DNA of 43,994 bases from the NCBI GenBank assembly GCA_003022565.1, contig PXTN01000098.1:1-43994 (forward strand). Direction: 5' to 3'. Positions within the stretch are counted from its first letter, which is position 1. Every line of letters starts with the position of its first letter. A program made the position numbers and the translations under genes. The stretch comes from Bacteroidetes bacterium QS_3_64_15 (GTDB lineage: Bacteria; Bacteroidota; Rhodothermia; Rhodothermales; Salinibacteraceae). Below the pieces are notes generated by a model. The model searched no databases, was not told where the DNA came from, and was given only the letters and a program-made list of their open reading frames with translations. This document shows, piece by piece, positions 38,375-43,994 of the stretch.

Positions 38375-39087
<713 letters not shown>

Positions 39088-39088
<1 letters not shown>

Positions 39089-39205: not shown

Positions 39206-41749
39206 ATGACGCTTCTCCAGCGCTCCAGCCGCCGCTACCTCACCCAGCACCCGTGGCTCATGGGGCTGTCCGTCCTGGGGGTAGCCATCGGCGTGGCGGT
39301 GGTCGTGTCGATCGACCTGGCCAATACAAGCGCGAGCCGGGCCTTCGAGCTGTCCGCGGAGACGGTGACGGGGGCGGCCACGCATCAGGTCGTAGGCACC
39401 GGCGAAACGCTCGACGACAACGTGTACCGCCGCCTGCGAGAGGCCGGTGTTCGACCCTCGGCCCCCATCGTGGAGGGATACGCCACCCTACAGCGGGGCG
39501 ACCGCACCTTCCAGGTTATCGGCATCGATCCGCTCGCCGACGCCGCCTTCCGGCCCTACCTGGGCACCGGAACATCGGGCGACCTGGACCTGGGTGCCTT
39601 CATGACGCAGGACGTGGCGCTAATGAGCGCCCCAACGGCCCGAGAGCTTTCGCTGTCGTCTGGCGACACCCTCCAGGTCGACGTCGAAGGGTCGACCTAC
39701 TCAGTCAGCCTGCTCGGACTCATCGAACCCCGAAACGAGCGGACGCGTCGGTCCGTGGCCAACCTCCTGGTCGTCGACGTGTCGATGGCCCAGCGCCTCT
39801 TCGACCAGTCCGGACGCCTGAGCCGCATCGACCTTCTCGCTCCGTCAGACGAGGGGACCCAGACAGCCTACCTGGATCGGGTCCGCCAGGCGCTGCCCGA
39901 GGGCGTTCAACTCCGGCGCTCGGACACCCGTACGGAGACAGTGGCCCAAATGACGAAGGCGTTTGATCTCAATCTGACGGCTCTCAGCCTCCTGGCCCTC
40001 ATCGTAGGGGCGTTCCTCATCTACAATACGATGACTTTTTCCATCGTCCAGCGGCGCGGGCTGCTGGGGCGGCTCCGAGCCCTGGGCGTGACGCGGGCGC
40101 AGGTGTTTCGGCTCGTGCTGGGCGAGGCCGCGGTGCTCGGCGTGGTGGGGAGCGGACTGGGCCTGCTGCTCGGCATTGTGCTGGCCTCGGGACTGGTACA
40201 GCTCCTGGCGCAGACGATCAACGATCTGTATTTCGTGGTGGAGGTGAGCGAGCTTTCCATCTCGACTTGGACGCTCGCGAAGGGCGGGCTCTTGGGCCTC
40301 GGGACGACGCTGCTGGCGGCCCTGCCCCCGGCCCGCGAGGCCACGAACGCACCGGTGAGTACCGTCCTGCGCCGCTCTACGCAGGAGACGACCCTTCAGC
40401 GACGGGCCCCGTGGTGGGCGGGGCTCGGCCTGCTGGTCGCCGGGGCCGGAATCCTCCTTCTCCTCGTCACTCAGCAGAGCATCTGGGCCGGGTACGGCGC
40501 CCTCTTTTGCCTCCTCGTGGGCGCGGCTCTCGTGACGCCGCTGGCAGTGATGGTGCTGGCCAACGGCGTGTGGCCCCTCCTCGGTCGGCTGACGGGCGTC
40601 ATTGGGCGCATGGCGGCGCGTGGCATCGTGGCCAACCTGAGCCGGACCGGCGTGGCCATCGCGGCCCTCACGGTGGCCATCGCCGCCACGGTGGGCGTCG
40701 GCATCATGATCGACAGCTTCCGGGGCACCGTGTCCGACTGGCTCCGGCAGTCGCTGCAGGCGGACGTGTACGTGCAGCCGCCGAGCCTCGTCTTCCGCCG
40801 CTCGACCGCCACACTCGACTCGACCGTCGCGGCCCGGCTGCGCGGGGTAGAGGGAATTGCAGCCAGCTACTCGGTTCGCCGCGTGACCGTTCAGGCCGAC
40901 GTGGGACGGACGGAACTGGTGGCCGTGGAGCCCGGCACGAATACCGAAGAGATCTATCAGTTCAAGAGTGGCAATCCCGAAACGGCATGGGACGCCGTGC
41001 GGTCGAGTCCCTCCGTGCTCGTGTCTGAGCCGTACAGCTACCGGTACGACGTGGGGGTGGGAGATACGTTGCGGCTGCAGACGGACCGCGGCCAACGCCC
41101 CTTTGCGGTGAAGGGGGTGTACTTCGATTACGGCTCCGACCTGGGGGTCGTCCTCATGAGTCGCTCTACGTACGAACAGTATTACGACGATCAAGGGGTG
41201 TCCGGACTGGCCTTTACTGCCGACGACACCACGTCCGTGGATGCCCTCATCGCCGATATGCGGGCCTCGGTGGCCGGGCTACAGGATGTGCTCATCCGGT
41301 CGAACAAGGCCTTGCGGGAGACCTCGATGCAGGTTTTCGACCGCACGTTTACCATCACGACGGTGCTGCGACTGCTCGCCATTGCCGTGGCGTTCATCGG
41401 GGTCCTCACGGCGCTCATGGCGCTGGCCCTGGAGCGGCGGCGCGAGATGGGCGTGCTGCGGGCCTCCGGGATGACGCCGCCACAGGTGGGCGGCTATCTC
41501 ACGCTACAGTCGAGCTTGATGGGGGCCATCGCCGGACTCCTGTCGCTGCCCCTCGGCTACGTGCTGGCGTACGTGCTCGTCTTCGTCATCAATAAGCGCT
41601 CCTTCGGCTGGACGCTTCAGCTTACGGTGCCGACCGGCGTGCTGCTGCAGGCGCTCGTGCTGGCCGTGGTGGCGGCCCTCCTGGCCGGTCTCTATCCGAC
41701 CTGGCGCATGGCACGGTCGAGCCCGGCGGTGGCCCTGCAGGATGGGTGA
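39206..41749 (+). CDS. FtsX-type ABC transporter permease (double FtsX, AttF/G-like)
   Basis: 847 residues. One N-terminal helix (about 18-38, LMGLSVLGVAIGVAVVVSID) is followed by a large MacB-like extracytoplasmic domain (to about 245). Then come helix groups at about 255-400 (LLALIVGAFLIYNTMTFSIV is the FtsX signature region) and 410-485, a second extracytoplasmic domain and a final group at about 720-840 (RREMGVLRASGMTPPQVGGY). So it contains two FtsX units in one chain, as when the two permeases of an Att-like transporter are fused. Translocated substrate unknown. It follows the ABC ATPase in the same direction; the AttH-like gene usually next in such operons comes only after two other genes (41967-43750). 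Confidence 0.9.
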   Translation: MTLLQRSSRRYLTQHPWLMGLSVLGVAIGVAVVVSIDLANTSASRAFELSAETVTGAATHQVVGTGETLDDNVYRRLREAGVRPSAPIVEGYATLQRGDRTFQVIGIDPLADAAFRPYLGTGTSGDLDLGAFMTQDVALMSAPTARELSLSSGDTLQVDVEGSTYSVSLLGLIEPRNERTRRSVANLLVVDVSMAQRLFDQSGRLSRIDLLAPSDEGTQTAYLDRVRQALPEGVQLRRSDTRTETVAQMTKAFDLNLTALSLLALIVGAFLIYNTMTFSIVQRRGLLGRLRALGVTRAQVFRLVLGEAAVLGVVGSGLGLLLGIVLASGLVQLLAQTINDLYFVVEVSELSISTWTLAKGGLLGLGTTLLAALPPAREATNAPVSTVLRRSTQETTLQRRAPWWAGLGLLVAGAGILLLLVTQQSIWAGYGALFCLLVGAALVTPLAVMVLANGVWPLLGRLTGVIGRMAARGIVANLSRTGVAIAALTVAIAATVGVGIMIDSFRGTVSDWLRQSLQADVYVQPPSLVFRRSTATLDSTVAARLRGVEGIAASYSVRRVTVQADVGRTELVAVEPGTNTEEIYQFKSGNPETAWDAVRSSPSVLVSEPYSYRYDVGVGDTLRLQTDRGQRPFAVKGVYFDYGSDLGVVLMSRSTYEQYYDDQGVSGLAFTADDTTSVDALIADMRASVAGLQDVLIRSNKALRETSMQVFDRTFTITTVLRLLAIAVAFIGVLTALMALALERRREMGVLRASGMTPPQVGGYLTLQSSLMGAIAGLLSLPLGYVLAYVLVFVINKRSFGWTLQLTVPTGVLLQALVLAVVAALLAGLYPTWRMARSSPAVALQDG

Positions 41750-41764
41750 CGCAGGATGGGTGAC
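41737..41764. repeat. 14-bp tandem duplication at the permease stop
   Basis: GCAGGATGGGTGAC is present twice, at 41737-41750 and 41751-41764. The first copy contains the permease stop codon (41747-41749). It marks the left edge of the unusual 2-kb segment. Confidence 0.85.
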
Positions 41765-41966
41765 CAACGTCTGTGTCCGCAGCGATACGATGGGTCGACC
41801 TTTCGGCATTGCTCACGGGACGCATCCAGGGGCGTGGTGGGGGATGCCGCTGGCGTTGCAGGCAAAGCTGCACCTTCATTTGCCCCCCCCTGAAAACGGT
41901 CGAACGTCGCAACCACCAGCGCATTAGAGAAGCACTAATTCTTGACTATTGCTGAAGGTCAGGATT

Positions 41967-43148
41967 ATGCACGTCAGCCACATCGAGCTCCAAAACTGGA
42001 AAAACTTCAAGTCGACGGGGGCCAGCCTCGCGCGTCGGACGTTTCTGATTGGCCCTAACGCCTCGGGAAAGTCCAACTTCCTCGACGCATTTCGATTTCT
42101 CCACGACCTCGCCGAAGACGGTCTCGCGCAGGCAGTTGATGATCGAGGAGGAGTTTCTACGCTTCGGTGCCTCGCGGCGCAGAAAAGTCCGAATATTGCG
42201 ATTGAAGTGGTCCTCAGCCGCACCCCGAACGAACCGCGCTGGCGATATCGAATTGAATTCAACCAGGATAATCAGCGCATCCCGAAAGTTCGGCAAGAGA
42301 CCGTGGAGGACCTCCAGTCTGGGGAAAAGATTGTGGATCGACCGGACGATGAGGATGAGGAGGACGAAATGCTCCTTACGCAAACAGCCCTGGAGCAAAT
42401 CCTCGCAAATCGCGAATTCCGAGACGTTGCCACGTTTTTTGGGTCCGTCTTCTACCAGCACGTTATTCCACAGGCCGTCCGAGATCCTCAGGAGTTCTCC
42501 CCAGCCCCGGTGAAGGACGATCCGTATGGCCGTGACATCCTTCAGCGGATTTGGAACAAGCGTCAGCGCACCCGTCGGGCGTGGCTGCGTCGCATCAGTT
42601 CTGTGCTGCAGGAGGCCGTCCCCCAGCTAAAAGGGCTTGAGGTGGAGATGGACGATCAGGGGACACCGCATCTCATTGGTCGCTTCGAGCACTGGCGGCC
42701 GCACGACGCTCGGCAAAACGAATCTCAGTTCTCGGACGGGACCCTCCGGCTTTTCGGTCTTATGTGGTCCGTGTTCGAGGGAAAAGGACCCCTCCTCCTC
42801 GAAGAACCGGAGCTCTCGCTTCATCCCGAAGTCGTACGGAAACTCCCACAGCTCCTCGCTGAACTTCAGGAGGAGATTCGCAAGATGAAGCGGCAGAGCC
42901 TGGACGACTTCGAGCCACGCCAGTTGCTCGTCAGCACGCACTCAGACGAGCTTCTTCGCGATCGCGGGATCGGTGCGAATGAGGTCCTCCTCATCAAGCC
43001 CGACAAGGAAGGCGCTGTTCTCGAAGAACCGGACCCGGATGATCGAATCGCGCTTCGGAACAGTGAACTGACGGCGGCCGACGTACTTCTTCCGAAATCC
43101 GGTCCCAGTGGGCAGTTGGCTCTCGACTTCAACGAGTCTGGAGCGTGA
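41967..43148 (+). CDS. AAA (SMC/OLD-like) ATPase, probable defence component
   Basis: 393 residues. Walker A GPNASGKSNFLDAF (about 29-42), signature-like QFSDGTLRLFGLMW (about 252-266), Walker B PLLLEEPELSLHPEVV (about 274-289) and His-switch STHSDELLRD (about 323): the arrangement of AAA_21/AAA_15 proteins, the family of OLD, RloA and AriA ATPases. The N-terminus HVSHIELQNWKNFKST is typical. The middle (about 115-170) has an acidic cluster (DRPDDEDEEDEMLL). The stop overlaps the start of the next gene (TGATG), so the two are coupled. Base use is less GC-rich than the flanking transporter genes. An unusual feature is the place between an ABC permease and its expected AttH-type gene. ATG at 41967 is preceded by a weak GAAGGTC. 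Confidence 0.8.
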   Translation: MHVSHIELQNWKNFKSTGASLARRTFLIGPNASGKSNFLDAFRFLHDLAEDGLAQAVDDRGGVSTLRCLAAQKSPNIAIEVVLSRTPNEPRWRYRIEFNQDNQRIPKVRQETVEDLQSGEKIVDRPDDEDEEDEMLLTQTALEQILANREFRDVATFFGSVFYQHVIPQAVRDPQEFSPAPVKDDPYGRDILQRIWNKRQRTRRAWLRRISSVLQEAVPQLKGLEVEMDDQGTPHLIGRFEHWRPHDARQNESQFSDGTLRLFGLMWSVFEGKGPLLLEEPELSLHPEVVRKLPQLLAELQEEIRKMKRQSLDDFEPRQLLVSTHSDELLRDRGIGANEVLLIKPDKEGAVLEEPDPDDRIALRNSELTAADVLLPKSGPSGQLALDFNESGA

Positions 43149-43750
43149 TGCCCCCGATTTCCATTCTCGTTGAGGGCAACCTGGACGAAACGGTCGCCCG
43201 AGAGATTATCGACACTGCTGGAGGAACGGTCGGTACGGTATACGGTCGGAGAGGGGTTGATTATATCGAGAAGAAAATATCGGGCTTCAACCAGTTGGCA
43301 CAGGGCGTTCCTATTCTCACGCTAGTCGACCTGATGGATCTCGATTCTGACTGTCCCGCCGAAATTGTACGAGATTGGCTCCCGCATCGTCACAATCAGA
43401 TGTTATTTCGCCTCGTTGTACGGGAGATCGAAAGCTGGATCCTGGCGGACCGAGCGAGCATTTCGCGCTTCTTCGGCCTCCGGAAGGCCCTTATTCCTCA
43501 CCATCCAGAGCAGTTGGAGGACCCGAAGGCGACGCTCGTGGAGCTTGCCGACTCGTCGCAGCGGCAAGGCCTCCGGAATGCAATCGTCCCTGACGATCCG
43601 ACGATGAACGACGAGGGGCCGGCCTACACGACGCGTGTGCAGCGATTCGTTCGACATCAGTGGTCCGTGAGGGACGCCGCAAAGAACGCACCCTCGCTGC
43701 ATCGATGTGTCCGGGCCGTCCGGCGCGTCGTCGATTCTTCTGAGCTGTGA
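43148..43750 (+). CDS. TOPRIM-like / DUF4276-type protein, partner of the AAA ATPase
   Basis: 200 residues. It begins SILVEGNLDETVAREIID, with the TOPRIM-like Glu (VEG), then ILTLVDLMDLDSDCPAEIVR, with the acidic D-x-x-D-x-D cluster, and VVREIESWILADRASISRFF and ALIPHHPEQLEDPKATLVEL, patches seen in small proteins that are commonly encoded next to AAA ATPases. Such proteins resemble the nuclease half of OLD and PARIS systems, but the exact family is not certain without a search. Its ATG shares one base with the preceding stop (TGATG), a classic translational coupling. GTG at 43145 is an alternative start. The C-terminus (HQWSVRDAAKNAPSLHRCVR) is helical. Confidence 0.7.
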   Translation: MPPISILVEGNLDETVAREIIDTAGGTVGTVYGRRGVDYIEKKISGFNQLAQGVPILTLVDLMDLDSDCPAEIVRDWLPHRHNQMLFRLVVREIESWILADRASISRFFGLRKALIPHHPEQLEDPKATLVELADSSQRQGLRNAIVPDDPTMNDEGPAYTTRVQRFVRHQWSVRDAAKNAPSLHRCVRAVRRVVDSSEL

Positions 43751-43759
43751 CAGTCCCCC

Positions 43760-43994
43760 ATGAGCCGATCCCTCTCCGTTCTGACCAGCCTCGTCGTCGC
43801 CATGGTCGTACTCGGCCTTGGGGCCTACTGGCTCACAGCACCGTCCGGCGAGTCCGATCTCCGTACCTCGGTCTCCGTCACCGAGGCAATGGGCAGCGAC
43901 ACCACCGGCTACCGCCGCGCCACGGAGGTGCGTCCCTTCACGTTTCCGGCGGACCACGGGCCGCACCCCGGCTACAAAACGGAGTGGTGGTACG
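43760..43994 (+). CDS. AttH/CrtC-like lipocalin-domain hydrolase (partial, 5' end)
   Basis: The first 78 codons are in the window. A hydrophobic export signal or anchor (SVLTSLVVAMVVLGLGAYWL) comes first, and at about residues 62-78 the family start FPADHGPHPGYKTEWWY appears. This motif (FP.DHG.HP.y..EWWY) is that of the CrtC/AttH group of lipocalin-like proteins, whose members include carotenoid 1,2-hydratase and the AttH protein of att-type ABC transport operons. Given the ABC ATPase and double FtsX permease upstream, AttH-like is more likely than carotenoid hydratase. It is 9 bp after the DUF4276-like gene. Confidence 0.75.
   Translation, partial: MSRSLSVLTSLVVAMVVLGLGAYWLTAPSGESDLRTSVSVTEAMGSDTTGYRRATEVRPFTFPADHGPHPGYKTEWWY

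Follow-up and report, generated by a model that had tools for sequence, protein, structure and literature searches.

The window (the whole 43,994-nucleotide stretch of DNA that was analysed) ends, on its plus strand, with genes of a host transporter operon and a further pair of genes lying among them. The operon begins with an ABC transporter ATPase (38378–39088), whose start codon is not fixed and whose scanned stretch (38378–39085) matches Pfam ABC_tran at 4.9e-36. It is followed by the left neighbour of the pair, a plus-strand MacB/FtsX-type permease (39206–41749), with matches to FtsX (8.7e-34, two stretches) and MacB_PCD (8.8e-22). An exact 14-bp tandem duplication (41737–41764, plus strand) runs across the permease stop codon, and a spacer of 217 bp (41750–41966, no strand assigned) leads to the pair. 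Its first gene, P1 (41967–43148; AAA_21, 6.1e-36), encodes an OLD/SMC-like ABC ATPase of 393 aa, and the second, P2 (43148–43750), a 200-aa TOPRIM-like protein related to DUF4276. The last feature is the N-terminal end of an AttH/CrtC-type gene (43760–43994), recognized by its translation; the window end cuts this ORF, which starts at the ATG at 43760, and its orthologue in a related genome (G001) matches CrtC (3.7e-64) and Lipocalin_9 (2.1e-49). The plus-strand order claimed in an earlier note on this DNA (ABC ATPase, permease, P1, P2, AttH/CrtC gene) is, therefore, borne out by the family matches.

P1 and P2 are read in different frames, and a stop codon separates the two ORFs. They overlap by a single base in the TGATG seen at 43146–43150, where the P1 stop (TGA, 43146–43148) shares its last letter with the P2 start (ATG, 43148–43150), which confirms the coupling described earlier; a further 9 nt separate the P2 stop from the AttH/CrtC start. 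No promoter-like site was found on the plus strand between 41600 and 43994, and no RNA family exceeded its gathering score between 39000 and 43994.

Both genes are named HEC-01 by the PADLOC defence library, and the earlier description of a split pair, with an ATPase and a TOPRIM-like partner, is supported. P1 matches HEC-01A (PDLC04180) at 3.6e-133, with residues 1–382 lying on profile positions 1–374 of 382, and P2 matches HEC-01B (PDLC04194) at 2.7e-58, with residues 3–196 on positions 5–199 of 204. A scan of genome contigs with the P2 alignment gave 120 relatives, of which the best 80 were kept; four of these loci (L104, L105, L106, and L136) belong to genomes used in building the scan query. 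In all 80 of these best loci, a P1 homologue lies directly upstream of P2, and in 79 of them, the P1 stop overlaps the P2 start or precedes it by at most about 70 nt, the remaining locus (L130) having a broken P1 frame. Contig ends truncate three loci (L107, L165, and L176), and the P1 match of L178 only begins at residue 132. A phylum could be named for 74 of the same best 80 loci, giving 21 names, and neither the P1 nor the P2 tree sorts by phylum. The upstream neighbour is co-directional with the pair in 61/73 cases, against 254/414 for other gene pairs (p 5.5e-5), and the downstream neighbour in 39/75 (p 0.098), both counts being based on crude gene calls with related loci left unthinned. 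Carriage of P2 by phages or plasmids was considered and rejected on the records searched: tblastn with P2 (E ≤ 1e-5) found no match in 72,556 plasmid records or in 50,697 phage records, and among viral contigs, 24 stretches fitted the search pattern, with none encoding a relative. In one 3.0-Mb genome (G039, the source of L103 and other loci), 11 P1-type matches and 6 DUF4276 matches were counted.

P1 was further compared by sequence, predicted structure, and conservation. Its likeness to the PARIS ATPase follows from the third-ranking PADLOC model, AriA (8.6e-36), and AriA chains are matched by the P1 profile at 5.4e-7. NCBIfam holds no match above cut-off for P1, and none for P2. The AlphaFold model of P1 has a pLDDT of 92.6, and a Foldseek comparison with the PDB places PtuA first, followed by retron ATPases, Rad50, and OLD (best E 2.2e-14). 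The P1 alignment comprises 76 rows, namely P1 and 75 of the 80 relatives; L107, L130, L165, L176, and L178 were left out for want of a start codon close to where one is expected. Invariant across these rows are G29, N31, G34, K35, and S36 (Walker A), S256, G258, and T259 (signature), E279-E280-P281 (Walker B), and H325.

The nature of P2 is less straightforward. Apart from one chance match, its only Pfam family is DUF4276 (2.3e-4), with a score of 21.9 bits, under the curated cut-off of 30.2. The P2 alignment, with P2 and 78 of the 80 relatives (L148 and L176 left out), has 79 rows, all of which match DUF4276 (PF14103) at E ≤ 0.1 (best 6.2e-9). Profile–profile comparison gives 95.6% for P2 against DUF4276, over the full length (columns 9–201), with 0.9% for a reversed control, and 61.8% (E 7.7e-5) against the OLD TOPRIM, in an alignment where the Glu and Asp motifs line up, the reversed control giving 0.1%. 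The PARIS effector AriB is of the DUF4435 type. The DUF4435 profile, a weak test built on two sequences, did not match the P2 profile in hhalign (0.1%), nor did the RloB profile (0.1%), which aligns with the OLD TOPRIM at 85%. A search of PDB sequences with the P2 profile found no TOPRIM protein.

The TOPRIM motif consists of a Glu after strand 1 and a DxD after strand 3. The AlphaFold model of P2 (pLDDT 95.2) has a beta-alpha-beta-alpha-beta-alpha-beta arrangement followed by helices, and this motif layout is found in it, with E9 after strand 1, D61 and D64 after strand 3, and additionally E93 and E95 after strand 4. E9 and D61 are invariant in 79/79 rows, as are C69, R92, E93, E95, W97, K127, G157, and Y160, while position 64 is D in 74 rows, N in 4, and E in 1. 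In 7 of the 79 rows, the clade of the window, DxD is replaced by DxxD, one residue longer (43328–43339, P2 residues 61–64); besides the window, these are L104, L105, L106, L108, L109, and L112. Foldseek of P2 against the PDB returned no match at E ≤ 0.001 (best 0.042; the PARIS chain 8ux9_A at 0.26), and none was significant against a viral library, where the top TM-score to P2, within the 50 matches listed, belongs to an RloB-like model (TM 0.54/0.51, E 0.11). The suggestion of a TOPRIM-like second protein is favoured by motif and profile, whereas the fold comparison with the PDB brought nothing significant. P2 is likely a TOPRIM, divergent and related to DUF4276.

The junction between permease and AttH was compared across 27 genomes of the family. 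The C-terminal 347 residues of the permease have a strong match in 25 of them, and weak matches only in G008 and G019. In 10 of these 25 genomes (G001, G002, G003, G004, G011, G012, G013, G020, G024, and G026), AttH starts 23–171 bp past the permease stop, which agrees with the earlier claim that the pair was added between these two genes. The intact pair occupies the junction in the window (G000) and in G023 and G025, which belong to another genus, g6. Sharing of the four-gene order by all relatives, which would have refuted the insertion claim, is not observed, yet the order recurs outside the window's genus. P2 is matched in 5/27 family genomes, one match being the decayed pair at the G017 junction; in G026, the pair sits on another contig and the junction is empty. 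AttH starts 454 bp past the permease stop in G021 and 868 bp in G014. In G014, of a third genus, a 31-residue match to the P2 C-terminus (HMM E 8.3e-6, in a search of 24 loci translated in six frames) immediately precedes AttH, and the junction spacer (L095) also holds a HigB-like toxin gene (1.6e-21) with an HTH partner beside this P2 scar. No P2 remnant was found at the junction of G021, which is of the same genus. Between the end of P2, or of what is left of it, and the start of AttH lie 9 nt in the window, 1 nt in G023, 0 nt in G017, and 9 nt in G014, while in G025 the two genes overlap. Another gene occupies the junction in G005, G006, G016, and G018, and the junctions of G007, G009, G010, G015, and G022 were not readable or had no AttH in the available stretch.

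As to these other genes, G005 and G006 (L079/L080), both of the window's genus, encode at the junction a 406-aa membrane protein that resembles a cation/proton antiporter by eye. In two other genera (G018, L088; G016, L090), a gene of about 1000 aa, M16 protease-like by eye, lies on the opposite strand at the junction. Separately, a genome of the window's genus with an empty junction (L207, G004:C2) carries an RloB-family gene elsewhere (6.5e-30).

Two features of the locus could be taken for marks of a recent insertion. The 14-bp sequence GCAGGATGGGTGAC is present twice, back to back (41737–41750 and 41751–41764), so that the duplication noted at the left edge is real and exact. Nevertheless, its reading as an insertion edge is not supported: a third copy was sought across the window and none was found, the right edge of the pair being without one, and a target-site duplication is therefore ruled out for tandem copies confined to the left edge. 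The pair is also less GC-rich than its neighbours, as had been remarked, with 0.58 against 0.67–0.68 for the ABC ATPase, the permease, and the AttH part; 25 other window ORFs, called by a crude longest-ORF rule, have a mean of 0.65 and a minimum of 0.60. A recent arrival is, however, ruled out as the reading of this difference, because P1 (0.56–0.59) and P2 (0.58) are just as low in g6, against 0.70–0.71 for the g6 permease, and the G026 pair has a GC3 below that of its neighbour as well. Low GC is, thus, a trait of the P1 and P2 genes, and the locus shows how low GC and an edge duplication may mislead on the age of an insertion. The spacer (41750–41966), aligned locally with those of six empty sites, does not clearly resemble them, the scores being 27–43; the G012 score of 43 is the one of the six above the shuffled 95th percentile (39), the shuffled maximum being 48.

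The insertion is probably old, since the order recurs in G023 and G025, is decayed in G017, and has left a scar in G014. Phylogenies were used to place it. The window groups with the same-site g6 copies in the P1 tree (96/74) and in the P2 tree (97/73), and in the joined P1+P2 tree, which took in 25 relatives from the nearest clades, the window and the same-site copies are sisters (97/93). Topology tests on P1+P2 did not reject a grouping of the window with G026 (p-AU 0.187) and rejected that of G026 with g6 (p-AU 0.032). On the permease tree, genus g1 holds together with the window permease inside it; the transporter itself, therefore, did not come from outside. The ratio of P1 distance (summed from the P1 tree) to permease distance (from the permease comparison) is 0.78 within g6, 0.64–0.65 between the window and g6, 0.54 between the window and G026, and 0.75 between g6 and G026. 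A recent transfer from the sampled g6 or g9 lineages was considered and finds no support in these ratios, which speak against recent import from sampled lineages; an unsampled source is outside their reach.

The alternative is a hotspot at the junction, with separate insertions of HEC-01 pairs in g1 (window), g6, and g3. For the 20 genomes with a readable state, the fewest changes on the permease tree number 3, whereas a single old insertion needs 8–9 losses, and the change count alone favours repeated insertion. The junction also receives other cargo, with the antiporter-like gene of G005 and G006 and the protease-like gene of G016 and G018 (both judged by eye), as well as the toxin and HTH partner of G014. 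Against independent insertion stand the sister grouping of the same-site copies (97/93), the divergence of the pair, which roughly parallels permease divergence, and the right edge, with P2 or its remnant 0–9 nt before AttH in four genomes and overlapping it in G025. This shared edge, the sister grouping, and the G014 scar together favour one old insertion with losses, and repeated insertion is regarded as the lesser possibility, although one to be taken seriously. The pair was probably inserted in an ancestor of several genera and later lost or replaced in most of the sampled lineages.

What the pair does was approached through its neighbours and the literature. Adjacent ORFs (115 of 148 scanned, after removal of 15 of at least 900 aa and 18 by hand) and distal ORFs (83/83 scanned), all from crude longest-ORF gene calls, were compared with PADLOC, and the adjacent ones with Pfam. 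No PADLOC model was found in more than 4 adjacent ORFs (methyltransferases) and no Pfam family in more than 3. The commonest adjacent families include housekeeping ones (amidotransferase, GidA, tRNA synthetase, EPSP synthase, and ketol-acid reductoisomerase) as well as restriction-type ones (DNA methylase, ResIII, and SNF2). As 182 PADLOC models, counted with their redundancy, match at least one of the 115 adjacent ORFs at 1e-10, against 28 for the 83 distal ones, some enrichment of defence genes beside the pair is possible, although no partner recurs. A literature search found no anti-phage test of HEC-01, and no paper by the name DUF4276. The proposal of a phage-defence unit, accordingly, draws support from membership of the HEC-01 candidate family and draws none from the neighbours, which are heterogeneous and include no recurrent defence partner. 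A defence role is rather suggested by the HEC-01 assignment, together with patchiness and decay.

The favoured reading, held with somewhat better than even confidence, is that of a HEC-01-type coupled unit, working like PARIS or OLD/Gabija, and probably an old insertion. P1 and P2 would be made as one translationally coupled module, in which P2 is a small nuclease, probably of TOPRIM fold, held or gated by P1 in an ATP-bound oligomer. A phage-derived trigger would change P1, upon which P2 could cleave host tRNA or DNA with its Glu...Asp-Asp metal site, and this cleavage would stop both cell and phage. The data directly show the ATPase family of P1 with its conserved motifs, the constant pairing and order, the conserved acidic residues of P2, and HEC-01 matches over almost the whole length, whereas the TOPRIM fold, the nuclease activity, the gating, the trigger, and the role against phages are inferred.

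Two other roles have to be weighed against this one. The pair may be a housekeeping or stress module (e.g., for DNA/RNA quality control or plasmid exclusion) riding on host operons, as the heterogeneous neighbours with their many housekeeping families and the co-directional upstream gene, typical of a passenger (61/73 vs. 254/414, on the same crude, unthinned calls), would allow. In the available text of PMC12796447, an archaeal OLD-class ATPase is reported to act in the cell cycle, apparently with no antiviral role. A module of this kind is nevertheless rather unlikely, given its patchy presence (P2 in 5/27 family genomes, including the G017 remnant), its decay, the P2 scar beside a toxin–antitoxin pair in G014, the scatter over 21 phylum names, and the HEC-01 library match. 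Recruitment of the pair into the att-type transporter function (e.g., AttH regulation) would fit the 9 nt between P2 and AttH in the window, the similar closeness in other occupied sites, and the use of the same junction in several genera; the operon exists without the pair in 10/25 relatives, however, and the G026 pair is on another contig, making this role highly improbable. A more speculative extension, regarded as rather unlikely, is that the junction is a long-lived slot of this family for selfish or defensive cargo, where a HEC-01 pair that entered once was retained across several genera by borrowing operon transcription and is replaced by toxin–antitoxin or other genes, and that the extra residue of DxxD in the window's clade alters chemistry or target. 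Most interesting about the locus are the slot, fixed while its cargo changes, and the DxxD variant.

For a catalogued candidate defence pair, these data provide a natural history: the two genes stay paired across 21 phylum names, and a single locus within one family is seen empty, occupied, decayed, or replaced. They also make two questions testable in laboratory strains, namely whether HEC-01 stops phages and whether a small TOPRIM-like partner with DxxD cuts nucleic acid.

Among known systems, the pair belongs to a candidate kind already catalogued by PADLOC as HEC-01 (Hma-embedded candidate 01), while its position here is unusual and probably old. Both proteins match HEC-01 over about their full length, in the same order and adjacent. 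The locus differs in that no Hma system adjoins the pair, the neighbours being the ABC ATPase, the permease, and AttH/CrtC, and in the DxxD that the window clade of P2 (7/79 rows) has instead of DxD. Embedding in Hma is the context of discovery, from which HEC-01 takes its name; HECs are described as genes lying between Hma genes in the accessible part of PMC12111858, which also reports protection against T4 and T5 by HEC-04, an ATPase–TOPRIM fusion. Several HECs are active, HEC-06 being named, according to an excerpt of PMC12988326, and HEC-01 is listed for Desulfovibrio piger in the section available of PMC12724379. With DUF4276 (PF14103), the P2 profile is kin over its full length (95.6%), P2 itself falling under the cut-off. 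For RloA/RloB, the RloB-like viral model tops the 50 listed by TM-score to P2, but at E 0.11, and the sequence profiles of P2 and RloB do not match. OLD nucleases, Gabija GajA, and HEC-04 likewise couple an ABC ATPase with a TOPRIM domain, and the Glu/Asp motifs of OLD are in register with those of P2; these systems, however, carry both domains in one polypeptide (PMC10568477 and PMC12111858, both in part), whereas P1 has nothing beyond its ATPase domain and P2 is a protein of its own. PARIS (AriA + AriB) is alike in having two genes, for an OLD/SMC-like ATPase and a small TOPRIM nuclease, and P1 matches AriA, but no AriB model is among the 12 PADLOC matches of P2. Its ATPase senses Ocr and switches on the tRNA-cleaving AriB, as stated in the available portions of PMC12839542 and PMC12409363, and the system is discussed, in the part of PMC10568477 at hand, as a 'Class 4 OLD' with separate genes.
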